Shown here: positions 35,016 to 54,660 of the stretch, in pieces
How positions within the stretch are numbered: the stretch's first letter is position 1
How the letters are laid out: the number at the start of each line of letters is the position of its first letter
From: Bacteroidota bacterium
Lineage (GTDB): Bacteria; Bacteroidota; Bacteroidia; Bacteroidales; VadinHA17
Direction: 5' to 3'
Length of the DNA stretch: 54,660 nucleotides
Assembly (NCBI GenBank): GCA_003250475.1
Contig: QKGI01000144.1
Coordinates: 1-54,660 of the forward strand
Position numbers and translations under genes: made by a program
Notes under the pieces: generated by a model
What the model was told of the DNA's origin: nothing
Databases searched by the model: none
Seen by the model: the letters and a program-made list of their open reading frames with translations, nothing else

Positions 35016-35019
35016 GTCA

Positions 35020-36087: not shown

Positions 36088-36107
36088 TAATATTTTATTT
36101 ATTCTTT

Positions 36108-36335
36108 TTATCCCACCTTAATCTTATAAACGGTAATCACACCGTCAGGGCATACCACCGCGCAGTTAGCACAACCGATACATGTATCAGGATAGGCTGC
36201 ATAACTATAGTGATATCCCTTGGCATTAACCTCTCCGGCCAGTGCCAGGGTCTGGGTGGGACATGTGACAACGCACACTTCACATCCCTTGCACCTGTCC
36301 TTGTCGACAACAACTGCACCTTTTATCTTTGCCAT
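36108..36335 (-). CDS. 2[4Fe-4S] ferredoxin subunit of the 2-oxoacid oxidoreductase
   Basis: The 75-residue protein has two complete cluster motifs, CKGCEVCVVTCP and CIGCANCAVVCP, each of the CxxCxxCxxxCP type. It is the delta-type electron-transfer subunit that moves electrons from the TPP site to free ferredoxin. It comes first of the four subunits, 32 bases after the aminotransferase stop and 20 before the alpha subunit. Confidence 0.95.
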   Translation of the reverse strand: MAKIKGAVVVDKDRCKGCEVCVVTCPTQTLALAGEVNAKGYHYSYAAYPDTCIGCANCAVVCPDGVITVYKIKVG

Positions 36336-36367
36336 CTCTTAAATGTTTATTCTCGTTTAAATTATTA

Positions 36368-37690: not shown

Positions 37691-37804
37691 AAATTATTTA
37701 TTTAAGACCCTCATCTGTGGCTCGAAGATAAAAATTTATAAGAAACCGAATACTGTATTTTATCACATTTGTAAATGATTTAAGTGAGCCTTCCGGAGCC
37801 GGTG

Positions 37805-38494
37805 CTACTTTTGTGACTGGGAAGATATGGCCAGGATTACCCCGAGGACCGTGCTGAGCAGCGCGGCAAAAAGCACCTGAAATTCCTGTGGCAGAAGGAA
37901 TGTAACAGTCTGGGCCGGTATCCAGAAGAGAGGGATGGTTTTCCTGAGCACGAATCCCCACATTGAACTCCAGTCTATGGCACCGAGCAGGTGACCTGCA
38001 GCAGGAAGCTTCATAAGTCTTCTGCTGTCGCCGGCCGATGTTGCTATATGGAGGTCACTCACCCTGTGTGTTACCATGAGAACGGGCGCATAGAAAATGT
38101 TAAGGAAGAAGCTGATACCAAAGGCCAGAAGTATCTTTGAGCCGGTGACTGCTCCTGCCATTATCCGGGCTGTGTTCTCCATTCCAAGATGTTCCGCTAT
38201 CATAGGCACCCCGTTGCTGAATATTATAAAGGCAGCCTTTACCGTCATGCCCAGGAAACCCCATACTACAGCCCGCGGTACAAGTCCGAATCCCTGTGGC
38301 AGATATACGCCGCTCCTGATCCTGCTGCCCAGCATCTCGCCCATCGTTGCCAGCAGGGCGAACTTGATGAAGCTTGCTGTAAATGCCCATTCCCTGCTGA
38401 ACCACAGGAAAAAGTCAAATAACCTGCCTGAAACAAAAAACGGCAGAAAAATCGCCGTAAAACAACCGATAAATAAAAGATCTTTTCTTTTCAT
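37805..38494 (-). CDS. Integral membrane protein of unknown function
   Basis: The 229-residue protein has about five hydrophobic segments (near 7-24, 36-52, 85-108, 125-150 and 195-222). The C-terminal stretch FWIPAQTVTFLLPQEFQVLFAALLSTVLGVIL weakly recalls the Mpv17/PMP22 family pattern (W-P-x-x-Q ... P-x-x-x-R), but several key positions differ and I do not assign it. It is set apart from the aminotransferase by 114 bases and from the acyl-CoA synthetase gene by a repeat region, so it may be a single-gene unit. Confidence 0.75.
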   Translation of the reverse strand: MKRKDLLFIGCFTAIFLPFFVSGRLFDFFLWFSREWAFTASFIKFALLATMGEMLGSRIRSGVYLPQGFGLVPRAVVWGFLGMTVKAAFIIFSNGVPMIAEHLGMENTARIMAGAVTGSKILLAFGISFFLNIFYAPVLMVTHRVSDLHIATSAGDSRRLMKLPAAGHLLGAIDWSSMWGFVLRKTIPLFWIPAQTVTFLLPQEFQVLFAALLSTVLGVILAISSQSQK

Positions 38495-38513
38495 GTGTGT
38501 ATATTAATATTTT

Positions 38514-38701
38514 GTCTTGCAGTCTTGCAGTCGTGCGGTCTTGCGGTCTTGCAGTCGTGCGGTCTGTCGCCCCGCAGGGCGGGGCTCCGTCTGAAGGCTT
38601 TTCTCATGCCAGCCCTGCAGTCTGGCTCCTTCTCTAAAATGACCCACCGGGTCATTTCTTAACGTTCGGCCCGGTCTGAGGTCTGAAGGTCTGAAGGTCG
38701 G
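38514..38701. repeat. Dispersed 8-bp-period repeat, locus 3 (inverted)
   Basis: Units TTGCAGTC/GTGCGGTC (38517-38568) are the reverse complement of the GACTGCAA units seen elsewhere, and GTCTGAAG-type units (38674-38700) the reverse complement of GACCTTCA. Between them lie two perfect hairpins: GCCCCGC/GCGGGGC (38569-38585) and AAATGACCC/GGGTCATTT (38637-38657). This fills the 222-bp gap between two minus-strand genes and holds no open frame. Confidence 0.8.
38637..38657 (-). terminator. Perfect 9-bp hairpin, possible terminator of the acyl-CoA synthetase gene
   Basis: AAATGACCC (38637-38645), loop ACC, GGGTCATTT (38649-38657). Read on the minus strand it lies 60 bases beyond the acyl-CoA synthetase stop and ends in a short run of T. 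The T tract is weak, so termination is plausible rather than certain. Confidence 0.45.
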
Positions 38702-38716
38702 AGTTTGTAAGCCTGG

Positions 38717-40777
38717 TCACAGCTTTGCTATTCGTATACGGGCGTCAACAGCAACTATACTCTCAGGGGTGCCAAGGAGAGGATTGATGTCCATTTCCGC
38801 AATCTCCGGTGCAATTGTCACCAGCTCCGAAAGAGAGGTTATCACCCTGGTGAAACACTCTTCACTGACACCGGCATATCCCCGGGTTCCCCTGATGATC
38901 CTGTATGACTTGAGTGACCTTATCATTGCACCTGCCTCGTCCGCCGAAACGGGTGCCAGAGATGATGCCACATCCCTGAAAACCTCTATGAATATACCTC
39001 CCATACCTGCCATGACCAGGTGGCCGTAGAGTCGTTCCCTCTTTGCCCCGCAAAATAGCTCCGTTCCTCCTATCATCTTCTGTACCAACACAGCAGTCAC
39101 ACCGGGGAGTCTCATCATCCTCATGAATTCTTCCTGCACTTCACCTGCGCTCCCGATATTAAGAGCCACGCCACCTATATCCGATTTATGTACCGGTCCA
39201 ACCACCTTCATTACCACCGGGTAACCCATATCTGTTGCTGCTCTTACGGCACTGTCAGCAGTGCTGACCACTCTCTCCGGCACGGTCTCTATTCCGGCCG
39301 CCCTGAGCAGCAGGGTCACCTTTTCCGGGGGCAGGTAACCCTCTTCAGCGGTGTCAACCACCTCCCTGATGGCCTGCCTGTCAGCCCCCGGGCCTGTCAT
39401 GTCCGGTTCTGCAGGTGCCGGCGTATTATATACGCTGCAAAGAGCCCTGCCGAACAGAACCTCATCGGTGAATATCGCATTACCCTTTGCGATGAATTCA
39501 GCAATCTCCCTCTTAACGTTTATCACCGAGGGCAGCACAGGGTAAACCGGTTTGCTGCAGCTGCGGATCTTGTCATGAAGAAGGTTGTAGACATCATCCA
39601 CAGGAAAGAGGCCGGGGCTTCCGAAGATGACGGCAATGGCATCGACCCCGGTGAAATCGTTCTCACAGGCATCGATTATATATCCTAGTTGTTCGGCTGT
39701 TCCGGTGGCGAGAAAATCTATGGGATTGGCCACTGAAGAGCCGGGAAACAGTTTTTCCAGGAGCCTCTCACCTGCCTCTCCCCCGAGGTGTGGTATCTGC
39801 ATGCCGCCATTGCTCAGGGCATCGGTCAGCATCACTGCCGGGCCGCCAGCATGCGTGACAATGGCAATCCTGTTGCCGGTAAGAGGCCGGTAGGTGAACA
39901 GTGCAGCCACATAAGCCAGCTCGGTACGGTTATGGCATCTGACTATGCCTGCTTTACGGAACAGGGCTTCAACAGCCGTGTCCGGCGAAGCCATCGCCCC
40001 GGTATGCGAGGAGGCGGCACGTGAGCCTGCCTCGGAGGTGCCAGCCTTGATGGCAGCGATACGACAGCCTTTCCTGATCAGCGAAGAGGAGTGCTTCAGA
40101 AACCTCGCAGGGTCGGCAATATTCTCAATGTACAAAAGCTTTATAGGCGAGCTCCTCCCGGGGTCAAAGGTCAGATCCAGGTGCTCGAGCACATCCTCAA
40201 CACCTATCTGGGCACTGTTGCCTACCGACCAGACACTCGAAAAGGGAAGCCCGCTGGTAATGGCTGCCTCAAGAATAAAAACAGCAGTGGCACCCGATCC
40301 GGAAATAAAATCAATACCCTGTAACGACAATCGCGGGATAGGCTCCGTGAAGACACCATGAAAATTATTATTGAGGAGTCCGATACAGTTCGGACCGATA
40401 AGCGAACCTCCCGTTATGTTGATCACATCCACTATCTCCCTCTCCAGAGCTGCCCCATCCTCATCCTCCTCACTGAATCCCGCCGAAAGAATTATAAAAC
40501 CCCCTGTTCCCTTCTCATAGGCGAGGGTGCTGACAATTGCCGGGCAGAACCGTGCAGCCACCGCAATGATAGCGAGATCGGTCTGCGGCAGCATTGACAC
40601 ATCGGCAAAGGTGTCAATACCCTGCACTTCGGAAGCCTTGGGATTGACAACATAAATTTCTCCATCAAAGCCATCGGAAAGAAGGTTCTTCAATACCTTC
40701 CCGCCAGCCTTGGTGATGTCATCGGAGCCTCCGACAACAACAATACTCCTGGGATTCAATAGCTTATCACTGATCAT
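38717..40777 (-). CDS. ADP-forming acyl-CoA synthetase (fused alpha-beta)
   Basis: The 686-residue protein has a CoA-binding Rossmann domain (SIVVVGGSDDITKAGGKVLKNL), a succinyl-CoA-ligase-like flavodoxin domain with a likely phospho-His in RAASSHTGAMASPD, and a C-terminal ATP-grasp domain (GYPVVMKVVGPVHKSDIGGVALNIG, AEMDINPLL). Enzymes of this type turn acyl-CoA, ADP and phosphate into acid, ATP and CoA. Downstream of a 2-oxoacid:ferredoxin oxidoreductase this is the energy-conserving step of amino-acid fermentation. The acyl-CoA range is unknown. It lies in the same orientation as the oxidoreductase operon but separately, about 3 kb upstream in transcription direction. Confidence 0.92.
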   Translation of the reverse strand: MISDKLLNPRSIVVVGGSDDITKAGGKVLKNLLSDGFDGEIYVVNPKASEVQGIDTFADVSMLPQTDLAIIAVAARFCPAIVSTLAYEKGTGGFIILSAGFSEEDEDGAALEREIVDVINITGGSLIGPNCIGLLNNNFHGVFTEPIPRLSLQGIDFISGSGATAVFILEAAITSGLPFSSVWSVGNSAQIGVEDVLEHLDLTFDPGRSSPIKLLYIENIADPARFLKHSSSLIRKGCRIAAIKAGTSEAGSRAASSHTGAMASPDTAVEALFRKAGIVRCHNRTELAYVAALFTYRPLTGNRIAIVTHAGGPAVMLTDALSNGGMQIPHLGGEAGERLLEKLFPGSSVANPIDFLATGTAEQLGYIIDACENDFTGVDAIAVIFGSPGLFPVDDVYNLLHDKIRSCSKPVYPVLPSVINVKREIAEFIAKGNAIFTDEVLFGRALCSVYNTPAPAEPDMTGPGADRQAIREVVDTAEEGYLPPEKVTLLLRAAGIETVPERVVSTADSAVRAATDMGYPVVMKVVGPVHKSDIGGVALNIGSAGEVQEEFMRMMRLPGVTAVLVQKMIGGTELFCGAKRERLYGHLVMAGMGGIFIEVFRDVASSLAPVSADEAGAMIRSLKSYRIIRGTRGYAGVSEECFTRVITSLSELVTIAPEIAEMDINPLLGTPESIVAVDARIRIAKL

Positions 40778-42732: not shown

Positions 42733-43821
42733 ATGCCATCAGGGTTATCATCGATACTCGAAAAAAAGGATCATGACCGGTCGGATATCCTTGCTATGCT
42801 TCAGTGCAGTGAGGAGGAAGCGCCATTGTTATACCGTAAGGCAGCGGCAGTCAGGGACAGGTATGTTGGCAACCATGTTTATCTGAGGGGCCTGATTGAA
42901 TACTCAAACATCTGCGGAAAGAACTGCCTTTACTGCGGTGTGAGACGCGATAACTCCAGGATTCAGAAATACACCCTCACCAATGACGAGGTCATTGAGG
43001 CGGCAATGACAGCCCACAAGCTTAATTTCGGTTCTATTGCCATCCAGTCAGGAGAGAACTCGTCAAAAGTGTTTGTTGATAATATTGAAGAACTGGTCCG
43101 GGCCATCAGAAAGCTCACCGGCGGTGAGCTGGGGATAACACTATCACTCGGGGAGCAGACCAGGGAGACATACCGGCGATGGTATGAAGCCGGCGCTCAC
43201 AGGTACCTTCTTAGGATAGAAGCCTCAAGCGAAAGCCTGTACCGCAGGGTACACCCTGAAGACGAGATGCACAGCTTCTACCACAGGCTCGATTGCCTCA
43301 GGGTGATACAGGAAACCGGGTACCAGACCGGCACCGGAGTCATGGTGGGCCTGCCTTACCAGACAATGACACATCTTGCCGACGATATAATATTTATGCG
43401 TGATTTTGATATCGACATGTGCGGCATGGGGCCTTTTATCGAACACTCCGACACCCCGCTGGGCGTAAGAGGTACCGACAATCTTTTCCTGAGAGAGCGT
43501 TTTAACCTGACCCTAAGGATGATAGCCATAATACGTATCATCATGAAGGATATAAATATCGTTGCTTCCACAGCCATGCAGACTATCGATCCGGCAGGCC
43601 GGGAGAAGGCGATATCATGCGGGGCAAATGTCGTCATGCCCAACCTCACCCCTGCCAGGTACAGGGCAGGATACCTTATTTATGAAGGCAAACCGGGTTA
43701 CCGTGAAGTTAACGAAACAAACATCAGCGGGCTCAATTTTGAACACATGCCGGGGATGACCCTGGGGCGCGGCACATGGGGTGACACGCCGCATTACAGA
43801 AGAAGGCTTTCAAAAGAATGA
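42733..43821 (+). CDS. hydE: [FeFe]-hydrogenase maturase HydE (radical SAM)
   Basis: HydE is one of three maturases (HydE, HydF, HydG) that build the diiron subcluster of the H-cluster. The 362-residue protein has the radical-SAM CxxxCxxC motif as C61-C65-C68 in SNICGKNCLYCGVRRDN, and later family stretches TGTGVMVGLPYQTMTHLADDI, MGPFIEHSDTPLG, TAMQTIDPAGREKAISCGANVVMPN and the C-terminal GYREVNETNISGL. The length is normal for HydE. It is transcribed toward the M14 peptidase, opposite to the hydG cluster 3 kb away. Confidence 0.95.
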   Translation: MPSGLSSILEKKDHDRSDILAMLQCSEEEAPLLYRKAAAVRDRYVGNHVYLRGLIEYSNICGKNCLYCGVRRDNSRIQKYTLTNDEVIEAAMTAHKLNFGSIAIQSGENSSKVFVDNIEELVRAIRKLTGGELGITLSLGEQTRETYRRWYEAGAHRYLLRIEASSESLYRRVHPEDEMHSFYHRLDCLRVIQETGYQTGTGVMVGLPYQTMTHLADDIIFMRDFDIDMCGMGPFIEHSDTPLGVRGTDNLFLRERFNLTLRMIAIIRIIMKDINIVASTAMQTIDPAGREKAISCGANVVMPNLTPARYRAGYLIYEGKPGYREVNETNISGLNFEHMPGMTLGRGTWGDTPHYRRRLSKE

Positions 43822-43897: not shown

Positions 43898-46471
43898 ATG
43901 ATGAAAAGAGTACTTGTCTCATCAGTGATCATCATTGTATCACTGATAATGAAGGCCCAGACGGGATTAAGCTATTACCTTCCTGACGGTTTAACCTTCG
44001 ATAAATCTGTTCCTGTTCCTGCATCCTTCATCGGTCATGAAGTCGGGGAGTGGCATGTAACCCATGATAAGCTCCTGGGATATATGAAACTTCTTGACAA
44101 TATCTCCGGAAGGGCAAAATGGGAAGAGTACGGCAGGAGCTGGGAAGGAAGGCCTCTGGGCCAGCTTGTAATCACTTCGGAAAAGAACATGGCCAGGCTG
44201 GAAGAGATCAGGCTTGAGCATCTCAGGCTATCCGACCCTGCGGTCTCCGGAACCGTTGTAACCGACGGTATGCCTGTCATCATCAAGCTGGGATATGGCG
44301 TTCACGGTAATGAATCAAGCGCCCAGAATGCCTCCCTGCTGACTGCCTATTACCTTGTTGCCGGACAGGGACCGGAAATAGACCGGATACTTGACAACGC
44401 CATCATCCTCGTAGACCCCTGTCTCAATCCCGACGGACTTCAGCGACACTCGACATGGGTTAACATGTACCGCGGCACAACACTGACAACAGATCCTACA
44501 GGACGTGAGTTCAATGAAGCATGGCCGGGAGGAAGAACCAACCACTACTGGTTTGATCTGAACCGCGACTACATCATGCTCCAGCACCCTGAAACAGTAG
44601 GACGTGTGGAAGCCTTCTTCCGCTGGATGCCTAACATCAATACCGACCATCACGAGATGGGAGCCAACTCCACCTTTTTCTTTCAGCCTGGCGTGAAGTC
44701 GCGTAATAATCCCATGGTGCCCGAGGCAAACCAGGAGCTGACGGCGGAGATAAGTAAATACCACGCCAGGCAGCTCGACTCTATCGGCAGCCTCTATTAT
44801 ACCGAAGAAAGCTTCGACGACTATTACCTCGGGAAAGGGTCATCTTACCCCGATGCCCACGGTTCAATAGGGATACTTTTTGAACAGGCAGGAGTAAAGG
44901 GCCATCTCCGCGAAGTACCAGGAGGCCTGCTCTCCTTCCCCTTTGCTATACGGAACCAGTTTAACGTATCTCTCTCCACTATCGAAGCAGGCCTTACCCT
45001 GAGGACAAAGCTCCTTGACATGCAGAGAGAGTTTTATCTCACGGCCCTCAGGGAGGCAGAGTCGTCACCCATCAAGGGTTATGTCATCAGTGCCGGGGAT
45101 GATAAAAGCGCTGCTGGCAGGTTCATCGAGAACCTGCTGAGACACAGGATAGAGGTCCGGAGATGCGGACGCACCATAACCAGGAACGGAGTGACATACA
45201 GCAGCACCGATAGCTATTTCGTGCCGTCAAGACAGAAGGAATACCGCTTTGTCAGAAGTCTCTTCGAACCGGTCGTCACCTTTAAGGACACTGTTTTCTA
45301 TGACATATCTACATGGGTGCTTCCTCTTGCCTTTAACCTGAGTTACACACCTGTAAACGGCTCTGAAGCTGCCGGTATGGCCGGTGAACGGGTGATGTCA
45401 GCGCCGATGCCGGAGGGTGGCCTTACCGGCAGCAGCAGCTCCTACGCCTGGCTCTTCGAGTGGACTGACACATACGCTCCGAAGGCATTGAATATGATAC
45501 AGAAAGCCGGACTGATAGCCAGGGTGGCAGCAAAACCGTTCACCATCAGCATAGAAACCGGTGAGAAAACGTTCGGGCATGGAACAATAATGATACATTC
45601 CGGTGAAAACCGGCGATCACAGGACGAGATCACAGGCATCCTAGAGAATGTTGCCAGAGAGTGCGGTATAACCATCCATGGAGTCTCTACAGGATTGACA
45701 CCTTCGGGTATTGATCTTGGCAGCAATGAGCTGATACCTCTCAAGATGCCATCGGTGATGCTGGTCATTGACGAGGGCACTCCTACCGACGATGCCGGAG
45801 AGATATGGCACCTTCTTGATGCCAGGTATGGCATGCAGGTAACGCTTATCCCTGCCTCCAGGCTGGCTTCCGCACGCCTTTCAAGGTATAATGTTATCAT
45901 CATTGCCGGGAACCCTTCAGTACCTCAGTCTGCCGTGGATAATATACGCGACTGGAACCGTGAAGGAGGTACACTGATAGCCTATAAGGGCGGTAACCGG
46001 TGGGTTGCGGCTAACGGTCTGGCCGCGATAAGCTTCATTGAAAACGCCTCCCTGCCTGCCACCATGCAGCGTAAGTATTCAGAGAAATGGCCTGACAGGG
46101 CATTGCACTCGATTCCCGGTTCTATTTTCATGACCAGGATCGACCTGACCCACCCTCTCTGCTTTGGCTATACAAGGGAGTACCTGCCTGTCTTTAAGAG
46201 CGATGCAACGGCAGTGATGTTTTCGGGAGACACCCACAACAGCCCGGTGAGATATATATCATCACCCCTTCTGAGCGGTTACTGTTCAAAAGAAAACCTG
46301 GACAGGATAAGCAACAGTGTTTTTGCATGCGTACATGGCGGGCCCGGAAGGGTGATCTCAATATATGACGATACCAATTTCAGGGCTATCTGGTATGGCA
46401 CGGCAAGAATCTTTGCAAACGCCGTCTTTTTCGGACAGGCGCTCAGGCAGGAAAGCAGATACGGCCAATAG
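43898..46471 (+). CDS. Large exported M14-family metallopeptidase
   Basis: From the ATG at 43898 the protein has 857 residues with a signal peptide (MMKRVLVSSVIIIVSLIMKAQ). The M14 zinc ligands are in GYGVHGNESSAQ (His-x-x-Glu) and probably NTDHHEMGANSTFFF; FDLNRDYIMLQHPE is the substrate-binding stretch. The C-terminal part (LPSVMLVIDEGTPTDDAGEIW, YNVIIIAGNPSVPQSAVDNI) looks like a glutamine-amidotransferase-like Rossmann domain, usual in this subgroup. A longer frame starting with GTG at 43781 would overlap hydE by 41 bases and lacks a signal peptide, so I reject it. The 3' end overlaps the convergent regulator gene by 29 bases. Confidence 0.9.
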   Translation: MMKRVLVSSVIIIVSLIMKAQTGLSYYLPDGLTFDKSVPVPASFIGHEVGEWHVTHDKLLGYMKLLDNISGRAKWEEYGRSWEGRPLGQLVITSEKNMARLEEIRLEHLRLSDPAVSGTVVTDGMPVIIKLGYGVHGNESSAQNASLLTAYYLVAGQGPEIDRILDNAIILVDPCLNPDGLQRHSTWVNMYRGTTLTTDPTGREFNEAWPGGRTNHYWFDLNRDYIMLQHPETVGRVEAFFRWMPNINTDHHEMGANSTFFFQPGVKSRNNPMVPEANQELTAEISKYHARQLDSIGSLYYTEESFDDYYLGKGSSYPDAHGSIGILFEQAGVKGHLREVPGGLLSFPFAIRNQFNVSLSTIEAGLTLRTKLLDMQREFYLTALREAESSPIKGYVISAGDDKSAAGRFIENLLRHRIEVRRCGRTITRNGVTYSSTDSYFVPSRQKEYRFVRSLFEPVVTFKDTVFYDISTWVLPLAFNLSYTPVNGSEAAGMAGERVMSAPMPEGGLTGSSSSYAWLFEWTDTYAPKALNMIQKAGLIARVAAKPFTISIETGEKTFGHGTIMIHSGENRRSQDEITGILENVARECGITIHGVSTGLTPSGIDLGSNELIPLKMPSVMLVIDEGTPTDDAGEIWHLLDARYGMQVTLIPASRLASARLSRYNVIIIAGNPSVPQSAVDNIRDWNREGGTLIAYKGGNRWVAANGLAAISFIENASLPATMQRKYSEKWPDRALHSIPGSIFMTRIDLTHPLCFGYTREYLPVFKSDATAVMFSGDTHNSPVRYISSPLLSGYCSKENLDRISNSVFACVHGGPGRVISIYDDTNFRAIWYGTARIFANAVFFGQALRQESRYGQ

Positions 46472-46967
46472 CTAACTCCTCTATCTCACGCAGGGCTTTC
46501 TCAAGTGAGATGAATTGTCTACGGTCACCCTCCAGCTCAAGCAGGATAAGACCGGCTGGTTCACCGGAACAGACCTCGTTCAACCCCAGTCTTGTCCGGA
46601 TAACACATCCATATGTTGTCAGTATGTTCTGTACCTGCAAACCCAGATCGTCACGTCTCGGCACAAGGATACCCAGCAGGTAAGCGCCGTTTTCTTCGGC
46701 AGGAGCATCTGAAAGCCCGTGAGAGAACAACATCTCCTTCGCAAGGATGCCTTCGATGCTCATCAGCCTGCCGGCCAGCTTTTCACAGTCGTCAGGGAGC
46801 CCGGCAAGATTGATGATCATAAAACCTTCACGACTGCAAAGCTGATCATTCAGCTCATGGAACCCCAGCCGTGCACTGATAACGGCGGCATGTTCAGACA
46901 GGACCTTCTGCACAAGTCCGGATTCCTTGATCCTGTCGGTGATCTTAATACCTAATACTCTGACCAT
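46443..46967 (-). CDS. Tandem-duplicated TM1266-type iron-only hydrogenase system regulator
   Basis: The 174-residue protein consists of two copies of an about 80-residue ACT-like (ferredoxin-fold) domain. Copy 1 (about 1-82) has VLGIKITDR, VISARLGFHE and GFMIINLAG; copy 2 (about 92-174) has LLGILVPRR, VIRTRLGLNE and GLILLELEG. The TM1266 family of putative hydrogenase-system regulators is normally a single about 80-residue domain found with the maturation genes, so this is a fused duplicate. It begins 11 bases after the hydG stop. Ligand and target are unknown. Confidence 0.85.
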   Translation of the reverse strand: MVRVLGIKITDRIKESGLVQKVLSEHAAVISARLGFHELNDQLCSREGFMIINLAGLPDDCEKLAGRLMSIEGILAKEMLFSHGLSDAPAEENGAYLLGILVPRRDDLGLQVQNILTTYGCVIRTRLGLNEVCSGEPAGLILLELEGDRRQFISLEKALREIEELAIGRICFPA

Positions 46968-46978
46968 GACAATTTATT

Positions 46979-48403
46979 TTAGTAATAAAGGTCTCTCTCC
47001 CCATTCTTAATACGCTCGATCTTCTTTCTTATGCTCTGTTTCATGCCTTCGTCAAGATCAGCCATGTTCTTCTCAATGGCTACCCACCCTTTCTCAGCCA
47101 GCGTAGGTGAGGCATAGTCAACGATATACTCAGAAAGAGTAAGGATTGCATTGGGGGTACAGTAACGTTTTATAAATCCGGGTACCGAGAACTCCATAAA
47201 GTGTTCACCTGTCCGGCCGAGCCTGTAGCACGCCGTGCAGAATGAGGGAATGTAATCGTTATCTATGAGTTCATTGATGACATCTGCAAGTGACCTCTCG
47301 TCATTAATCTTGAACTGTTCACGGTTCAGGTTCTGAACCTCATTCCTTGAGGCGGAGTATCCTCCCAGCTCGAGCTTGGTGCCGCCGTCTATCTGTGACA
47401 CACCGAATGCCATGGCCTCCGCGCGCACATCGGGGGCCTCACGTGCGGTGAGTATAAGCCCGGTATAGGGCACGGCAAGGCGCAGGATTGCTATCAGCTT
47501 CTTAAAATTTTCGTCGCTGACGAAATAATTACCTGCCAGGTTAAGCATGGAGGCGTCCTTGATCCTCGGGAACGAGATGGTATGCGGACCTACATTGTAG
47601 CACGCTTCAAGGTGGTTTGCATGCCTTACCAGCCCCATAACCTCAAACCTCCAGTCATACAGGCCGAAGAGTGCTCCTATGCCTACATCGTCTATGCCTG
47701 CTTCCTGTGCCCTGTCAAGGGCTGTGAGCCTCCAGTCATAATCCCTCTTCTTTCCCCCGAGATGGTACCAGGAATATGCTTCCGGGTCATAGGTCTCCTG
47801 GAAGATCTGGTAGGTACCTATGCCTGACCTGCCGACAGTCCGGAAACCGTCAATATCGAGGGGTGCGGCATTGATGTTGACCCTGCGTATCTCCCCCCTC
47901 TCTTTCTTGACACCATATACCAGCCTGACGGTGTGAGCTATATACTCAGGGTTGTACTCAGGATGTTCTCCGTAAACAAGTATCAGCCTCTTCTGTCCGT
48001 TATCCTCAAGTGCCTCCACCTCGGAAGTAATCTCCTGATCAGTAAGGGTCTTCCTCGTGGCCTCCCTGTTTGTCACCCTGAAGCCACAGTACTGGCAGTT
48101 ATTGCTGCATTTGTTCCCAATATACAGTGGAGCGAAAAGAACTATCCTGTTCCCGTAAACCTTCTTCTTGAGCTCTCTTGCTCCTGCCTTTATCTCCTCC
48201 ACCAGATCCTCACCTTCAGCGTTGATCAGAGCCGCTGTCTCGGCAAGCGTCAGACGCTCCTTCGACAATGACTTGCTGATCAGCTCTCTGACCCTCACTT
48301 TGTCTGACCTGGTATTATTAATGATGGACCATATCTCGGATGGGTCAATAAAAGGTACCATCCTGCGGTCCGGTATGCTGCATTTTTCCGGATTAAATTT
48401 CAT
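46979..48403 (-). CDS. hydG: [FeFe]-hydrogenase maturase HydG (radical SAM tyrosine lyase)
   Basis: HydG cleaves tyrosine to make the CO and cyanide ligands of the H-cluster. The 474-residue protein has the radical-SAM motif C99-C103-C106 in YIGNKCSNNCQYCGFRV. Its C-terminal cluster site has exactly the HydG spacing Cys-x2-Cys-x22-Cys (starting FCTACYRLGRTGEHFMEF), which separates it from the related ThiH. The length fits. It has a -7 box at 48444-48451 and leads a two-gene unit with the TM1266-type gene; it may also be reached by transcription from ribF. Confidence 0.97.
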   Translation of the reverse strand: MKFNPEKCSIPDRRMVPFIDPSEIWSIINNTRSDKVRVRELISKSLSKERLTLAETAALINAEGEDLVEEIKAGARELKKKVYGNRIVLFAPLYIGNKCSNNCQYCGFRVTNREATRKTLTDQEITSEVEALEDNGQKRLILVYGEHPEYNPEYIAHTVRLVYGVKKERGEIRRVNINAAPLDIDGFRTVGRSGIGTYQIFQETYDPEAYSWYHLGGKKRDYDWRLTALDRAQEAGIDDVGIGALFGLYDWRFEVMGLVRHANHLEACYNVGPHTISFPRIKDASMLNLAGNYFVSDENFKKLIAILRLAVPYTGLILTAREAPDVRAEAMAFGVSQIDGGTKLELGGYSASRNEVQNLNREQFKINDERSLADVINELIDNDYIPSFCTACYRLGRTGEHFMEFSVPGFIKRYCTPNAILTLSEYIVDYASPTLAEKGWVAIEKNMADLDEGMKQSIRKKIERIKNGERDLYY

Positions 48404-48424
48404 CTCATTACATCTGTTATTCCG

Positions 48425-48465
48425 TCCCTACATTGTGACCTGCAAAGATACGGAAATTAGGGACA
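48425..48465 (-). promoter_or_regulatory. hydG promoter framed by an inverted repeat
   Basis: On the minus strand, 48451-48444 reads TATCTTTG, an exact TAnnTTTG box, 41 bases before the hydG start. It is enclosed by a 7-bp inverted repeat (GTCCCTA 48425-48431, TAGGGAC 48459-48465). Just downstream of the box on the minus strand is TCACAA (complement of 48434-48439), which equals one half of the Rex operator TTGTGA-n6-TCACAA; the other half is not present, so Rex control is only a possibility. Confidence 0.5.
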
Positions 48466-48480
48466 GGTTATTCCGCAATC

Positions 48481-49392
48481 TCAGAATATAAGCTCTCTCA
48501 TCTCCTTCACACCCTCAGCAAGCAACCTCTCCTCGGGTAATCCTGATCCGGATATTTCGAGCTTCTTATGAAAGAAAAGAGTGATCCTTTTCCCGGGTAT
48601 ATCATCCTCATAATTTTCAAGGTGCACGAATATTTCAGGCAATTCAGGTCCGTTGTCATGTATGCGTACCATCCCCCGTGAATAAAAGGTCTCCGCCGCG
48701 CATGACACAGCGTACAGTCCGGATGGAGGCACAAGCTTTGTACGGTCAGTGACAGGTATCCTTATCATCGGCACCCCGTGTGTGACCGGCAGAGCCACCT
48801 TCTGCGCCACCCCGATGATGAGGTAAAAATGGTCAAGATAGGCATTGGCCCGCTGAATATATCCTTCCGACAGAGCCTGCCTAATACGTGTGGAACTTAC
48901 TGTCTCATTCTGAACCTCCTGCATGGGTATCTCCTCCGCCTCGAAACCGTATTTCTCCCTCCATTCCCACAGCGCCCGGTAATCACCCTGCTGGTTGAAA
49001 CCAAAGTGGTGGTTGTGTCCCACCACGATTACCTTTGCCTTAAGGATCCCGCACAGGATATCCCTTACAAACTCTTCGCCGGTGGTGTGTGAAAACTCCC
49101 GTGTAAACTCAATGATGATCACATTGTCAATCCCTGCCTTCCGGAGCATTTCAATCTTCTCATCCTGTGAGCATATCAGCTTCAGTCCCCTGCCTGCCGT
49201 ATCCGGATGCAGCACCACCCTCGGATGGGGGTGAAAGGTAATAAGAACGCTCTCCCCGCCATATTCTGCCGCAAGTTTCTTCAGTCTCCTTATGATGGTT
49301 TTATGACCTACATGCACACCGTCAAAAGTACCTGTCGTGATGACAGGCGACTTTATCACAGATGCCTCCTCAAAACTTCTGAATATCCTCAT
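48481..49392 (-). CDS. ribF: Bifunctional riboflavin kinase/FAD synthetase
   Basis: RibF turns riboflavin into FMN and FAD. The 303-residue protein has the FAD-synthetase domain (SPVITTGTFDGVHVGHKTIIRRL with the GxFDGxHxGH motif, VVGHNHHFGFNQQGD, VSSTRIRQALSEGYIQRANAYL) and a C-terminal kinase domain (LPVTHGVPMIRIPVTDRTKLVPPSGLYAV). The usual T-N-x-G motif of the kinase domain is not obvious, but the overall length is normal. Its start overlaps the rex stop by 4 bases, placing flavin cofactor supply inside the redox cluster. Confidence 0.94.
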   Translation of the reverse strand: MRIFRSFEEASVIKSPVITTGTFDGVHVGHKTIIRRLKKLAAEYGGESVLITFHPHPRVVLHPDTAGRGLKLICSQDEKIEMLRKAGIDNVIIIEFTREFSHTTGEEFVRDILCGILKAKVIVVGHNHHFGFNQQGDYRALWEWREKYGFEAEEIPMQEVQNETVSSTRIRQALSEGYIQRANAYLDHFYLIIGVAQKVALPVTHGVPMIRIPVTDRTKLVPPSGLYAVSCAAETFYSRGMVRIHDNGPELPEIFVHLENYEDDIPGKRITLFFHKKLEISGSGLPEERLLAEGVKEMRELIF

Positions 49393-50027
49393 TGCCCTGC
49401 CGGCTGCCGGTTCTCCTTTACAAAATATGCCACCTTCTCTATGGAGGTGATCATATCAAACTCCTCAAGATATACCGTGTCAGGAACATTCAGGGGCACA
49501 GTGGTAAAGTTCATTACACCCTTTATGCCGTTGCTTACAAGCATTGATGTCACCGAGACTGCCTGGTCAGGAGGAACGGCCAGCACTGCTATAACGATGT
49601 CCAGCTCACTCTTGAGCTTTCTGAACTGATCAAGGTGGTAACACCTCACACCCGCCACAACCTTATCAACCTTCTGGGTATCAATGTCAAAGGCTGCCAC
49701 AACATTCAGGTTAGTGCGTTTTCCCATGAAGTATCCGGTTATAGCCCTTCCAAGGTTACCCATACCTATTATAGCCACATTCAGTCCATCGGGAGCATCG
49801 ATAATGGATCCGATAGTCCTGATCAGTTCTCTTACATCATAGCCTTTTCTCATCACACTCCCGTATCCTATAAGCATGAGGTCACGCCTGACCTGTACGG
49901 CGGTGATATGTAACATGGCTGCCAGTTCATGCGAGAATACATAGTTGCGGTTTGCAGCAAGCGATGCTATTAACGCCCGTCTGTACTGGCTCAGACGTTC
50001 AACAGTCTTTCCCGGAAGTGTCTTCAT
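49389..50027 (-). CDS. rex: Redox-sensing transcriptional repressor Rex
   Basis: Rex senses the NADH/NAD+ ratio and releases DNA when NADH is high, switching on fermentation and hydrogen genes. The 212-residue protein has the N-terminal winged helix (TVERLSQYRRALIASL, FSHELAAMLHITAVQVRRDLMLIGYGSVMRKGYDV) and the NAD-binding Rossmann motif AIIGMGNLGRAI. The length is typical. Genes overlap by 4 bases on both sides (hybrid kinase upstream, ribF downstream), so Rex is translationally coupled to a signalling protein, an arrangement worth noting. Confidence 0.96.
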   Translation of the reverse strand: MKTLPGKTVERLSQYRRALIASLAANRNYVFSHELAAMLHITAVQVRRDLMLIGYGSVMRKGYDVRELIRTIGSIIDAPDGLNVAIIGMGNLGRAITGYFMGKRTNLNVVAAFDIDTQKVDKVVAGVRCYHLDQFRKLKSELDIVIAVLAVPPDQAVSVTSMLVSNGIKGVMNFTTVPLNVPDTVYLEEFDMITSIEKVAYFVKENRQPAGQ

Positions 50028-51172
50028 AATCCACCCTTTATTTTAGTAACCTGAGATTTTGGAATAATCACTGTAAATACCGATCCTTTATCGGGTATGC
50101 TCTCAACATTTATTACCCCGTGGTACAGCCCCACAACCTTCCTTACAATTGACAGGCCGAGGCCGCTGCCGCTTATGTTACGCGTCTTGTCATTCTTTAT
50201 CCTTGAGAACTCTTCAAAGAGCATATTACGTTCATCATCATTCATGCCGATGCCGGTATCAGCCACCGAAACAGAAAACTCACTGTCATTACAATCGACC
50301 GTTATGGTCACTGTGCCGCCTGTCCTGTTGTACTTAACCGCATTAGATACCAGGTTGTTCATAATGATCTCAAAGTCGTTGGGATCAGCCCATATAGTCT
50401 CGCAACCCTTTATATCTGTAACAAAGCGTATATCCTTATGTATGGCGTAAGGGCTTACCGTCACTACTGCCATTGATACGAGATCCCTGAGGTTCACATC
50501 CTGCATCTTCTCCAGCTGTCTTTCGAAGCTCACCTTTGTGAAGTCCAGCAGGTCCATGATCAGGTGCCGCATACTGTCAATCCTCTGCAGGGATCTGTCT
50601 ATTGCTGAGGTATACTCATCGAGTGAATCACCCATCTGCCTCTCCTGCATCATCTTGAGGTAACCCTCGATGGCATTCAGCGGAGCCTTCATCTCATGTG
50701 ACAGTACCGAAAGGAACTGGAACCTGACCTTCTTTCCTTCCACTTTAAGTTTATGAGTTATCCTGCGCAGATACTGCTGCTTGGTTATCTGCTCGATGGA
50801 GGCCTTCAGCTCCTGGGGAGTGAACGGCTTGGGAATGAAGTCAATGGCTCCGTCATTATGTGCTTTGATAGCGACATCTATTGAAGCGTAGGATGTTATC
50901 ATTGCCACGACGATGTCATAGTTCTTTTTCCTCACATATTCGAGCACCTCCACACCCTGTATCCCGGGGAGCTTATTGTCGAGAAGGAGTATGTCGGGCA
51001 TCTCCCTGTCTATGATCTCTATACCCTCCTCACCCGTGGCCGCCTCCATTATGTTGAAGGTGTAATCCTCGTCCATAAAAGGATAGGTCACATGGAAATT
51101 TCCGAGTATCCTTGTCACCCCGGACCTGATGCCGGGCTCATCATCTACAACAAGTACTTTTAGCTGTGCCAT
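50024..51172 (-). CDS. Receiver-histidine kinase hybrid without membrane segment
   Basis: The 382-residue soluble protein has a receiver domain (D10/D11, phospho-acceptor D65 in LLLDNKLPG, T93, K115), a short coiled linker, a HisKA domain with phospho-acceptor His159 in FLSVLSHEMKAPLNAIEGY, and a HATPase domain (NNLVSNAVKYN, DTGIGM, GSGLGLSIVRKVV). The order receiver first, kinase second means that its kinase activity is probably switched by phosphotransfer from another kinase. The receiver holds an insertion of about ten residues (around YPFMDEDYTF). It has no output domain. It lies 5 bases after a lone receiver gene. Confidence 0.93.
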   Translation of the reverse strand: MAQLKVLVVDDEPGIRSGVTRILGNFHVTYPFMDEDYTFNIMEAATGEEGIEIIDREMPDILLLDNKLPGIQGVEVLEYVRKKNYDIVVAMITSYASIDVAIKAHNDGAIDFIPKPFTPQELKASIEQITKQQYLRRITHKLKVEGKKVRFQFLSVLSHEMKAPLNAIEGYLKMMQERQMGDSLDEYTSAIDRSLQRIDSMRHLIMDLLDFTKVSFERQLEKMQDVNLRDLVSMAVVTVSPYAIHKDIRFVTDIKGCETIWADPNDFEIIMNNLVSNAVKYNRTGGTVTITVDCNDSEFSVSVADTGIGMNDDERNMLFEEFSRIKNDKTRNISGSGLGLSIVRKVVGLYHGVINVESIPDKGSVFTVIIPKSQVTKIKGGL

Positions 51173-51177
51173 AGGTT

Positions 51178-51573
51178 TTAAATCTTAAGGAGTTTTCTTA
51201 TTCCCTGTTCTAGTTGTTCCGGCCTTACTCCCTTTTCCAGATAGAGGTCAGCCCTGATCCATTCGCGATCCTGTACGCTGTTAAGTCCGAAGGTAATACC
51301 CGTCTCCCTGGATACTGCCGTCGCAAGGATCACAGGTACATCCGGATACTTTCTCTTGAGCTTGTAACAGAGGATAAACCCGCTGTCGTCGTTTTCCATC
51401 ATCAGGTCGAAAACGGCAATATCCGGTCTCATTCTGGCGATTACCTGCTCTGCCTCTGCCTGGCTCTCCACTGCCACGACCTCAAACCCTGCCTTCCGCA
51501 GATAGAAGGCTACCTGGAAAAGATAGTCGGGGTCATCGTCAGCGAGAAGGACAGTCTCTGTTTTCTGATTCAT
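51178..51573 (-). CDS. Single-domain response regulator
   Basis: The 131-residue protein is a lone receiver domain with acidic D12/D13, phospho-acceptor D56 in IAVFDLMMEN, T85 and K114 (YLEKG). The loop after beta-3 is slightly longer than usual (MMENDDSGF). With no DNA-binding or enzymatic domain it would act as a phosphoryl shuttle or by protein contact. It lies between the hydrogenase-kinase fusion (50 bases upstream) and the receiver-kinase hybrid (5 bases downstream), so it is likely part of the same relay. Confidence 0.93.
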   Translation of the reverse strand: MNQKTETVLLADDDPDYLFQVAFYLRKAGFEVVAVESQAEAEQVIARMRPDIAVFDLMMENDDSGFILCYKLKRKYPDVPVILATAVSRETGITFGLNSVQDREWIRADLYLEKGVRPEQLEQGIRKLLKI

Positions 51574-51623
51574 CTCTGTGCGTTGTTAATTCATTACTTC
51601 ACTAATGCAAAGACCTCACCGGT

Positions 51624-53588
51624 TTATTTATCCCTCCTGGGAAGGATGATCCTGAAGGTAGTGCCTGTAGGACCTTTTGCCCTGTCACTGTTGGTCTCCA
51701 CAGTTATCTGTCCCTTATGCATCTTTACTATGCCATAGGTGGTTGCAAGACCCAGACCAGTCCCTTTCCCTATTCCCTTGGTGGTAAAGAAGGGTTCGAA
51801 GATCTTGGGTTTGTCTTCCTCATTAATTCCTGTTCCGGTATCGGAGACGTTGAATATCACATCCCCCGGTGTATCCTCGAGACGGACAGTCAGGGTGCCG
51901 CCGTCAGGCATAGCATCAATGGCGTTCTTAAAGAGGTTTGTAAGCACCTGCGTCACCTGCTCGGAATCGATGAGAGCATCCGGACTGGTGGTATTGTCAT
52001 CTATCACTGCCTTGATGTTGTCAGGGAAGACCACCCCTTCAATGCTGCTCTCAGTCAGTTTTCTGATATTTACAAACTGATAGTTCACCTGGTTCTTGCG
52101 GGCAAAATTAAGCAGGCCACCGACGATCTTTTTACATCGTGCCGCCTGGTCAACAATCAGTCTCAGGTCATCACGGACAGGATCGTCAGGCTTGCATTCC
52201 TCGAGTAGAATGTTGCTGTACATTATTACCACTCCCAGGGGGTTATTGAGCTCATGTGCTATCCCAGCCGAGAGCTGACCCATATGGGCAAGCTTTTCAG
52301 ACTGCTTGAGTGCGTTCTGCATGGTGGTCAGCTTGGCGTTGGAGAGGGCCAGGTCCTGCACTGACCTGTGCAGCTTGTCTATGGTGTTGGGAAGGCACAT
52401 CTCCTCTTCCGCCAGTCCTTTGACTATGGCTACAGCATGATCCACACAGGTCTCATATCCGCATGCCCCGCAGTCAAGATGATCCTTAGGCGTCAGTTTG
52501 CCCATCGATACCAGGACTTCCTGTATTTTCTCATCTTCAGGCTGGTCCCTGCGCATATCCTCCGGACGGAAACGGACCGACAGATCAAGCATGTCATACA
52601 GTTCCAGGTTCTTTCTCCACTCCTCCATGTTCAGCTCCGCCATTTTATCCTGGGCATAGGTACTTACCAGCGCCCGCCTGTTGTACTGTTTGCCTCCCTT
52701 ACTCATCCCCGGTCCCATAATGCAACCCTCACAACATAACAGCTCCAGGTGCTGGCCGCCAATCATCCCCTCCTCAAACTCCCTGATAGCCTCCTGGAAG
52801 TCAATCCTTCCCTCGGCAGCAATAATATTACCTGTAATTGCGTCATCATTCACCCCTGCAGTCTGAAGCAATCCCCTTGTCACAGGGAAGATGGCGCCCC
52901 GTCCCCCGAGAGGAGGATCAAACTCCGAGGGTATCACTGCGTCGGGACTTATTCCTGAAGCCTCAAACATCTCACGCAGTTCAAGGAATGTGATCGCCAC
53001 GTCCACCTCACCTGTCTCCGCCTTTTTTGCAACGCACGGACCGATAAAAGTCACTGACAGATCGTTGCCGTACTTTTTCCTCATCACCCTTGTCATGGCA
53101 ACCATGGGAGACACCACCGGGACAAGGTTCTGGGTCAGGTCCGGGTGGTAAAACCTTACAAAGGAAACAATAGCCGGACAGTCGGATGATACATAGTTTT
53201 TGGCTCCTGCCTCGCTTACAAGGTTGCGGTAACGGTGAGCCACGAGGTCAGCGCCGAAGGAGACCTCAGCGACATAGTCAAAACCCAGGGCGCGGATCAT
53301 GCCGACAACCTTTTTGTGGTCCGTAACATCGTGGAACTCGGCCGGGAAACTGGGGGCAACGATTGCTGCCTTTTTCCCCGGCTTGACCAGAACCTTCCTG
53401 ACCTGATCGACTGTATTTACAAAGACCTTGGCACCCTGACTGCATACTTTTGTACAGTTACCGCACGCGATGCACCTCTCGGTGATCACCTCCGCCTGCC
53501 CGCCGACAATCCTTATTGCCCTGGCAGGACACTCTCTCACGCAGGTGTAACAGGTGCGACACAACTCTTTTATTGTATATACCAGCAT
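51624..53588 (-). CDS. Histidine kinase fused to ferredoxin and [FeFe]-hydrogenase-type domains
   Basis: The 654-residue soluble protein has, in order: two [4Fe-4S] motifs (C10-C13-C16-C20 and C39-C42-C45-C49); an [FeFe]-hydrogenase large-subunit-like domain (about 70-330); a further four-Cys Fe-S module (C373-C376-C381-C398, LDCGACGYETC); a coiled segment; HisKA with His445 in GIAHELNNPLG; and HATPase (NLFKNAIDAM, DTGTGI, GKGTGLGLATTYGIV). Cysteines stand at all four H-cluster ligand positions: C137 (SSDCPA), C185 (IGPCVAKK), C285 and C289 (LLCCEGC). It is predicted to sense H2 or the ferredoxin redox state and to phosphorylate the neighbouring receivers. Related kinase-linked hydrogenases are placed in the sensory group C of the hydrogenase classification. 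Confidence 0.93.
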   Translation of the reverse strand: MLVYTIKELCRTCYTCVRECPARAIRIVGGQAEVITERCIACGNCTKVCSQGAKVFVNTVDQVRKVLVKPGKKAAIVAPSFPAEFHDVTDHKKVVGMIRALGFDYVAEVSFGADLVAHRYRNLVSEAGAKNYVSSDCPAIVSFVRFYHPDLTQNLVPVVSPMVAMTRVMRKKYGNDLSVTFIGPCVAKKAETGEVDVAITFLELREMFEASGISPDAVIPSEFDPPLGGRGAIFPVTRGLLQTAGVNDDAITGNIIAAEGRIDFQEAIREFEEGMIGGQHLELLCCEGCIMGPGMSKGGKQYNRRALVSTYAQDKMAELNMEEWRKNLELYDMLDLSVRFRPEDMRRDQPEDEKIQEVLVSMGKLTPKDHLDCGACGYETCVDHAVAIVKGLAEEEMCLPNTIDKLHRSVQDLALSNAKLTTMQNALKQSEKLAHMGQLSAGIAHELNNPLGVVIMYSNILLEECKPDDPVRDDLRLIVDQAARCKKIVGGLLNFARKNQVNYQFVNIRKLTESSIEGVVFPDNIKAVIDDNTTSPDALIDSEQVTQVLTNLFKNAIDAMPDGGTLTVRLEDTPGDVIFNVSDTGTGINEEDKPKIFEPFFTTKGIGKGTGLGLATTYGIVKMHKGQITVETNSDRAKGPTGTTFRIILPRRDK

Positions 53589-53600
53589 AAATATCCCTTT

Positions 53601-54660
53601 TTAAAGCAGCACGTCCCTCTTGTTGAAATGGGTATGGAACAGCTTTTTGTCAGCCAGTTCCCCGCAATCGACAAATACCTTTCCGTAAAGATCCTCAATG
53701 GAGGCTGACTGTTCTGGGCCACGTACAGCCTCCTGATCGTCTGTCTGCCATATAAACTTTGCTCTCTGCCGGACGGCCTCCCTGGAGCCGGCAGACATCA
53801 TGCCGCCGCCGTTGACACAACCCCCGGGACAGGCCATTACCTCCACCAGGTCATATGATGATCCGCTGTCAAGCATGGATTTCAGTTTGTCAAGACCCTT
53901 CATCCCGTCAACGACAGCCACTGAATAACTTACTTCGCCTGTAGTGACAGTGGCCTCCCTGAAGAGACCTGTGTTACGCAGCTTCTTAACCGCCTGCCTG
54001 TCAGCCTCCTGTCCTCCTGCCCTTATGGCAAGCGATCGCAATACTGATTCCGTGATGCCGCCGGCCGACTCTGCGAGAAGCGAGGCTGAGCTGCGCAGTG
54101 CCATCGGTTCATCAGCCGGTTCAGGGTCAATATTGGCGATATCGATACCATACAGGATGATCAGTCGTGCCAGCTCCCTGACAGTGAGTACCGTATCTAT
54201 GTCACTTATCCCCTTCCGCGTCATGCTGTCACGCCGGGCTTCAAATTTCATTGCGGTACAGGGGGTGACAGATACCGTATAGACATGTGATTTATCGTCT
54301 GAAACCGGAACAACCGATCTGATAATGGCTCCGGATATCTGCTGGGGAGTCTTGAGCGTTGACAGCACCGGAAGAAGCCCTGGCGTAAACTGCTCGCAAT
54401 ATTTTACCCACGCAGGGCATGCCGAGACTATCAGTGGTGTCTTGTCAGCCTTCTCCCTTTTGCTTATTATGGTGTCAGTAAGTTCAGTAATGAGTATATC
54501 AGTGCCCGTCCCCGATAGGAACACCCTGTCAAAACCTGTCTTTCTGAGAGCAGCATTCAGCAGCCTGTCAAAGTCGCGGTTGTATTTTATTCCCAGCTCT
54601 TCCGCCAGGGCAAAAGGTACAAGCGGCGAATATTGTATCACCCGCATCACATCACTTTTA
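53601..54660 (-). CDS. [FeFe]-hydrogenase large subunit, 5' end cut by window edge; sensory-like
   Basis: The frame is open to the last base of the window: codons before the apparent starts at 54650/54647 continue it, and the visible N-terminus VIQYSPLVPFALAEELG aligns with an internal hydrogenase stretch, so the ferredoxin part lies beyond the edge. The H-cluster motifs are SACPAW (Cys at 54417-54419), TPCTAMKFE (Cys at 54258-54260) and VMACPGGCVNGGGM (Cys at 53829-53831 and 53817-53819), so all four ligand cysteines are kept. The usual TSCCP proton-transfer cysteine is Ala, and the first Lys of the PCxxKK motif is Met. This pattern fits a sensory or slow enzyme better than a catalytic one. 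It ends 12 bases before the kinase fusion. Confidence 0.9.
   Translation of the reverse strand, partial: KSDVMRVIQYSPLVPFALAEELGIKYNRDFDRLLNAALRKTGFDRVFLSGTGTDILITELTDTIISKREKADKTPLIVSACPAWVKYCEQFTPGLLPVLSTLKTPQQISGAIIRSVVPVSDDKSHVYTVSVTPCTAMKFEARRDSMTRKGISDIDTVLTVRELARLIILYGIDIANIDPEPADEPMALRSSASLLAESAGGITESVLRSLAIRAGGQEADRQAVKKLRNTGLFREATVTTGEVSYSVAVVDGMKGLDKLKSMLDSGSSYDLVEVMACPGGCVNGGGMMSAGSREAVRQRAKFIWQTDDQEAVRGPEQSASIEDLYGKVFVDCGELADKKLFHTHFNKRDVLL

Follow-up and report, generated by a model that had tools for sequence, protein, structure and literature searches.

We analysed a 54,660-nucleotide stretch of DNA from a Bacteroidota bacterium of the VadinHA17 lineage (contig QKGI01000144.1; "the window"), which makes up the entire contig C22 in a draft assembly of 168 contigs and 3.47 Mb. 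The right end of the window belongs to an operon that encodes a trimeric [FeFe]-hydrogenase (HydABC), a histidine kinase with a hydrogenase-type H-cluster domain (HydHK), two further phosphorelay proteins, and the repressor Rex. The locus itself is well supported. We propose, with somewhat better than even confidence, that it is an ancient Bacteroidota unit for hydrogen and redox signalling and that in lineages that carry HydS2, another protein with an H-cluster domain, HydABC has been remodelled into a slow, probably regulatory complex. This proposal draws on comparisons of predicted proteins: changes at key positions of HydA and HydB go with the presence of HydS2.

Gene order and conservation of the operon

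The initial annotation of the window described eight successive minus-strand genes and read them as a single system of two H-cluster sensor proteins, a phosphorelay, and Rex. The eight open reading frames (ORFs) lie where it placed them, and Pfam and NCBIfam uphold their names. It also described three junctions as 4-base overlaps or gaps of at most 5 bases, which agrees with the sizes that we obtained from hydA to the last gene (12, 50, 5, -4, -4, 77, and 11 bases). The first gene, which had been called a partial hydrogenase, is the 3' part of hydA (53601..54660, minus strand like the other seven; 352 of 571 amino acids; Pfam Fe_hyd_lg_C at 53601-54659, Pfam SSU, and the NCBIfam A6 model), and it is cut short only by the end of the contig at 54660. 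The last 144 bases of the window are identical to the first 144 bases of contig C145, where hydA continues, and HydA read across this overlap has 571 amino acids and no stops. Extension of the sequence to the right, as had been suggested, adds hydB and hydC, which run the same way as hydA, and the genes for HydS2 and for a SpoIIE-domain protein, which diverge from them. Same-genus relatives with unbroken contigs (such as L042 to L047) show the full order, so the join of the two contigs is correct. The whole unit reads hydC, hydB, hydA, HydHK, receiver, receiver-kinase, rex, ribF-like, hydG, and a fused TM1266 pair. A single system of H-cluster proteins, phosphorelay, and Rex thus survives as a conserved unit, but its gene set reaches beyond the window, to HydB, HydC, HydS2, and SpoIIE. 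The first gene does not encode a second sensor: its product is the catalytic-type HydA subunit of a HydABC complex encoded with hydB and hydC, which rules it out as a stand-alone sensor.

Other genomes share the gene order. HydHK matched (E ≤ 1e-60) in 136 of 295 genomes of the order, with some matches to HydS2-like proteins, and we took loci from these matches and from a named genome collection. HydA lies directly upstream of HydHK in 95 of 104 HydHK loci; the other nine were left out of our counts, and removal of near-copies (at least 98% identity) left 93 non-redundant loci. Among these, with counts lowered by short contigs, we found HydB in 92, HydC in 89, the lone receiver (RR) in 91, the receiver-kinase hybrid (RRHK) in 89, Rex in 57, RibF in 51, HydG in 50, and TM1266 in 28, as well as HydS2 in 52 and SpoIIE in 50 of the fetched stretches. 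Beyond the order, a full-length relative of HydHK (41-47% identity) is encoded in 17 of 296 genomes of another class of the phylum (the window's own aside), and the gene order HydC-HydB-HydA-HydHK-RR-RRHK is present in 11 of the 12 loci that we fetched (one has an extra ORF). HydA has the canonical motifs TSCCPGW and MPCTVKK in all 11 of these core loci, so the canonical form is probably ancestral. In eight loci of this class (L245 to L247, L249, and L251 to L254), a second HydC-HydB-HydA set and more receiver and kinase genes directly follow the core operon.

The signalling core can exist alone, as two loci (L130 and L171, from genomes G207 and G107) have HydHK-RR-RRHK-rex-ribF without HydABC. 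In both, genes that by eye resemble a phosphate-type ABC transporter precede the core. Two other loci (L169 and L208) retain HydHK alone.

HydHK (51624..53588) consists of two Fer4 domains, an H-cluster domain, a four-Cys FeS motif, HisKA, and HATPase (domains from Pfam). The C-terminal FeS motif, which we identified from the translation, is Cx2Cx4Cx16C. In the 93 aligned relatives, and in the residue numbering of CpI that we use throughout, the ligands C300, C499, and C503 of the H-cluster are present in all and C355 in 92, while position 299 is Asp in 84, 353 is Gly in 91, and 497 is Leu in all 93. According to Land et al. 2020 (PMC8163306), sensory hydrogenases of groups C and D have no C299 and a replaced M353, and their C-terminal part contains the motif Cx2Cx4Cx16C; the departure of sensory hydrogenases from group A at 299 and 353 is also described in PMC10055695. 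By sequence, HydHK has the residue pattern of a sensory hydrogenase. RR (51178..51573, Pfam) and RRHK (50024..51172; receiver, HisKA, and HATPase domains from Pfam) keep their phosphotransfer residues: the phospho-acceptor Asp is present in 91 of 91 RR proteins, both the receiver Asp and the H-box His in 89 of 89 RRHK proteins, and every aligned row has the kinase His, the N-box, and the receiver Asp residues.

The rex gene (49389..50027; Pfam, and above the cut-off in NCBIfam) encodes an NADH/NAD-sensing repressor. A palindrome of the type TTGTTAATAAATTAACAA lies upstream of hydC in all eight aligned members of the genus, and we consider it a candidate Rex operator (C145:3284-3299 in this genome). 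The adjoining sequence resembles a Bacteroidales promoter. Operator scores of at least 12 of 14 were found in 31 of 54 loci with rex, versus 1 of 24 without it (p = 3.9e-6, with relatives allowed for). In the window's genome, the site at hydC is the sole exact match to TGTTAANNNNTTAACA. Eight further sites have one mismatch. Four of these precede nqrA, a gene for L-lactate dehydrogenase, the first gene of a hydrogenase operon on contig C41, and a gene for pyruvate dehydrogenase E1, all of which Rex could plausibly control; for the remaining four, no connection is evident.

Changes in HydABC and the presence of HydS2

The best match of the window's HydA in the Protein Data Bank (PDB) is HydA of the T. 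kivui HydABC complex (8a6t), and the best PDB matches for HydABC are 8a6t, 7q4v, and 7p5h. All four Cys ligands of the H-cluster (300, 355, 499, and 503) are present in HydA of 93 of 93 loci. Around the cluster, the window's HydA differs from CpI at six positions: C299 (the proton-relay Cys) is Ala (GCA, 54420..54422), M353 is Thr (ACC, 54264..54266), K358 is Met (ATG, 54249..54251), E279 is Leu, F417 is Ala, and G418 is Glu (all codons on the minus strand, placed by alignment to CpI). The same six substitutions are present throughout the genus (A299, M358, L279, A417, and E418 are fixed in eight relatives), and among them the sister-genus locus L121 differs only by Ser at 353. Other lineages have Asp, His, Asn, Ser, Leu, or Phe at 299. 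In HydB of this genome, one Cys of the N-terminal [2Fe-2S] cluster is left and D94 of the FMN pocket is Lys (HydB residues are named after Nqo1), while the FMN domain and the C-terminal Fer4 domain are present. The four Cys of HydC are kept in 88 of 88 proteins. An AlphaFold2 model of HydA from L042 (mean pLDDT 69.8, pTM 0.62, residues 123-208 unreliable) led Foldseek to HydABC and CpI chains, which adds little beyond the sequence match.

HydS2 (627 amino acids) and the SpoIIE-domain protein are encoded on C145, divergent to hydCBA. HydS2 has an H-cluster domain, a Cx2Cx4Cx16C FeS motif (from the translation), and a PAS-like C-terminus; the PAS match (E = 5e-4) is just short of the Pfam cut-off, and the SpoIIE match of its neighbour is clear. 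Cys at 499 is absent from 18 of 57 HydS2 proteins and K358 from most (L010:3653-5536 and relatives), so some of them may lack a normal H-cluster.

To relate HydS2 to HydABC, we considered five changes: HydA C299, M353, and K358, loss of the HydB N-terminal Cys, and HydB D94 (E279 was excluded from the set). When HydS2 was scored from the fetched stretches, 52 loci had it, 22 did not, and for 19 the state was unclear because of short contigs. Any of C299, M353, and K358 was changed in 32/52, 2/22, and 1/19 of these, respectively, and at least one of the five changes was present in 49/52 versus 2/22. A search of the genomes then showed that G082, G158, and G071 carry a full-length HydS2 elsewhere (51%, 47%, and 35% identity), and these were moved to the group with HydS2; they include both of the earlier exceptions, in which HydA was changed and HydS2 had been scored as absent. 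G167, with a partial match of 32%, was scored as lacking HydS2. After rescoring, none of these changes occurs in the 19 loci without HydS2, while among the 55 with it, C299, M353, or K358 is changed in 34, E279 in 45, and HydB D94 in 31, and the HydB N-terminal Cys is lost in 29 (three rows without an aligned HydB were left out of the counts). At least one of the five changes is present in 51 of the 55, in none of the 19, and in 2 of 16 with unclear state. C299 changes at least 13 times on the HydHK tree.

Genomes with HydS2 also tend to have hydrogenases to spare: at least two other canonical HydA motifs were found in 42 of 44 genomes with HydS2 and in 1 of 19 without, by a hand tally whose pattern misses HydA proteins with other motifs. 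(The tally leaves out G240 and, with HydS2 state unclear, G216, G227, G103, and G156.) The window's genome has two other canonical HydA genes.

The HydABC subunits diverge far faster in loci with HydS2, and HydHK and RR do not. Median identities with versus without HydS2 are.460/.663 for HydA,.504/.672 for HydB, and.409/.649 for HydC, but.571/.576 for HydHK and.603/.608 for RR. HydA is nevertheless under purifying selection. The dN/dS ratios among members of the genus are 0.058 for HydA, 0.054 for HydB, and 0.048 for HydHK, similar to those of the other genes, with dS near saturation. These ratios and the fixed changes suggest that HydABC is kept, for a role that does not need the canonical proton relay.

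Possible roles of the remodelled HydABC

We infer that the remodelled HydABC, once a fast catalyst, has become a slow complex that is probably regulatory. TmHydS has Ala at the C299 position and low but real activity, and in group A, substitutions of C299 other than Asp reportedly abolish or cripple activity (PMC10055695). In lineages with HydS2, the window's among them, HydABC keeps the ligands of its cluster, while the proton relay, the pocket, and the N-terminal cluster of HydB are lost. HydABC of the window type would no longer be a fast bifurcating hydrogenase, and bulk H2 turnover would be left to the genome's two other canonical HydA proteins. H2 or the redox poise at the H-cluster of HydHK would set its autophosphorylation, and the phosphate would pass to the two receivers. 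HydS2 may act via the SpoIIE phosphatase, whose probable target is a partner-switching pair. If Rex releases the repression of hydC at high NADH, then the unit would read H2 and NADH together.

Besides the near saturation of dS, several points weigh against this proposal. Four of the 55 loci with HydS2 have none of the five changes. The association with HydS2 is post hoc, as the features were picked after looking, and the lineages are related. On the HydHK tree, a test of independent pairs found only four, reached no significance, and has no power. A rough parsimony reconstruction puts the losses on branches with HydS2 in 8 of 8 cases for C299 (p = 0.0011), 7 of 7 for M353 (p = 0.0057), and 10 of 10 for K358 (p = 0.0009), but it needs five regains of C299, which is implausible, and is a guide only. 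Loss of C299 is no proof of lost catalysis, since TmHydS and TamHydS turn over H2 without it (PMC10055695, PMC8163306), and Asp, reportedly the one tolerated substitution at 299 (PMC10055695), is found in several loci. Pfam and NCBIfam found no output domain in RR or RRHK and no DNA-binding domain in RRHK, so the pathway lacks its final step. As for Rex, the hydC site of the window's genome scores 12 of 14 (p = 0.02 by shuffles), and this genome has 9 Rex-like sites versus 6 for a control pattern, which is no excess; only the locations of the sites favour Rex.

A more specific idea, which we consider less likely than not, is that the trimeric bifurcating HydABC was recruited several times as a sensor and reports the H2/NADH/ferredoxin poise to the relay of HydHK, receiver, and receiver-kinase. 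The H-cluster would then have been kept and fast proton transfer given up, with convergence on the pocket residues of groups C and D (Ala at 299, Thr or Ser at 353).

The main rivals to a slow complex are a tuned catalyst and an enzyme of the Bfu type. For the first, the operon would be an ordinary group A3 bifurcating operon under local sensory control, with a working HydABC that has an alternative proton path and a tuned bias. The complete set of H-cluster ligands, the conserved Cys of HydC, the FMN and C-terminal Fer4 domains of HydB, and hydG in the operon all fit this, as do the canonical HydA of loci without HydS2 and of the other class and the fact that sensory enzymes without C299 keep some turnover (PMC10055695, PMC8163306). 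We nevertheless think it rather unlikely: in the window's genus, all six HydA positions (C299, M353, K358, E279, F417, and G418) are changed and fixed, HydB has lost N-terminal Cys and has Lys at D94, and two other canonical HydA genes are at hand. Also, HydABC evolves faster than HydHK in loci with HydS2.

It is improbable that HydABC is now an NADH:ferredoxin oxidoreductase of the Bfu type, which takes a new third substrate or none at all and whose H-cluster site is a relic or holds a [4Fe-4S] cluster only. The Bfu family consists of relatives of HydABC with other third substrates (PMC9304861), and the loss of K358 and of second-sphere residues fits such an enzyme. However, all four ligand Cys are kept, hydG is in the operon, no gene for a new substrate is apparent there, and the change at D94 affects the FMN pocket of HydB too. 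Least probable, and set aside as a leading view given the low dN/dS of HydA (similar to that of HydB), is that HydABC is merely decaying where hydrogenases are spare: different subunits are hit in different lineages, most genomes with HydS2 have at least two other canonical HydA motifs, and HydABC is absent beside HydHK in L130, L171, L169, and L208, but the reading frames are open, identical substitutions are fixed across the genus, and the cluster ligands are never lost.

Other genes and comparison with known systems

Downstream of rex, the ribF-like gene (48481..49392) keeps the FAD-synthetase domain of its name (Pfam FAD_syn), but its flavokinase part scores 18.1 bits versus a Pfam cut-off of 19.6, and it lacks the PTAN motif of the RibF copy on contig C43. 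That copy, a normal RibF, is the genome's only flavokinase match. Despite the normal RibF on C43, the ribF-like gene with its degenerate flavokinase part is conserved in the operon across families. HydG (46979..48403) is an H-cluster maturase (TIGR03955, 481 bits versus a cut-off of 312); another, HydE, is encoded near the operon on the plus strand (42733..43821; TIGR03956, 319 bits versus 255), and hydF is on contig C102. The last gene (46443..46967) had been described as a duplicated TM1266-type gene. It does have two TM1266-type domains (TM1266/CPF_0552 in two stretches, by Pfam and NCBIfam), but it is a fusion: in several relatives (for example L048, L052, L137, and L146), each domain has a gene of its own, the two in tandem. 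Its end overlaps a convergent carboxypeptidase ORF by 29 bases.

The second hydrogenase locus (L009; C41:24000-40000) encodes HydABC, a PHP protein, an RsbW-like ATPase, a 464-amino-acid H-cluster-like protein, and a DRTGG protein, and has a one-mismatch Rex-type site upstream. Elsewhere in the window, 34239-40777 encodes subunits of a 2-ketoacid:ferredoxin oxidoreductase, an aminotransferase, and an ADP-forming acyl-CoA synthetase, and looks like amino-acid fermentation.

Previous papers describe HydABC operons that include phosphatases and sensors of group C (PMC5037454, PMC6776011). In a literature search, mostly of openly licensed papers, neither the combined locus nor a HydABC with sensory-type substitutions turned up. 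All parts of the locus belong to known kinds. In the literature that we surveyed, H2 sensing by [FeFe] enzymes in anaerobes is still putative. The approximately 90 loci form a natural series: the sensor kinase stays the same, and the hydrogenase next to it may be canonical, remodelled, or in between, in hosts with spare hydrogenases. Such natural variants make it possible to test what makes a sensor out of a catalytic [FeFe]-hydrogenase. Together, HydHK, the two receivers, Rex, HydS2, and SpoIIE make a complete candidate relay for H2 control of Bacteroidota fermentation.

Among known systems, the trimeric group A3 HydABC of T. maritima, T. kivui, and A. woodii shares its three subunits, domain make-up, and four ligand Cys with the window type, but HydABC of the window's genus differs at C299, M353, and K358, in the lost N-terminal Cys of HydB, and at D94. 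At the pocket and proton relay of group A (C299, M353, K358, and E279), the window has Ala, Thr, Met, and Leu, whereas loci without HydS2 keep the group A residues.

HydHK resembles the histidine-kinase-linked group C1, whose sensory role is putative in HydDB also (PMC5037454), in that an H-cluster domain without Cys at 299 is tied to a histidine kinase and has the Cx2Cx4Cx16C motif described for sensory groups (PMC8163306). It differs from group C1 in that the kinase is in the same chain and that the next two genes encode a receiver and a receiver-kinase, neither with an output domain.

An H-cluster sensor with a PAS domain and an adjacent phosphatase marks the putative group C3 of HydDB (PMC5037454), and in R. 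albus this arrangement, HydS with a Ser/Thr phosphatase, has been linked to H2-dependent regulation (PMC6776011). HydS2 is like these in its H-cluster domain, FeS motif, and adjacent SpoIIE gene, may resemble them in its PAS-like end, and is unlike them in that K358 is replaced and, in those 18 proteins, C499 is absent.

Finally, Rex of Caldicellulosiruptor bescii controls an [FeFe]-hydrogenase and hydG, with the consensus TTGTGAANNNNTTCACAA (PMC6391272). Similarly, a Rex-type palindrome precedes the hydrogenase genes here, and hydG is within the unit. In contrast to C. bescii, rex lies inside the hydrogenase operon, and the half-site is mostly TTGTTAA instead of TTGTGAA.

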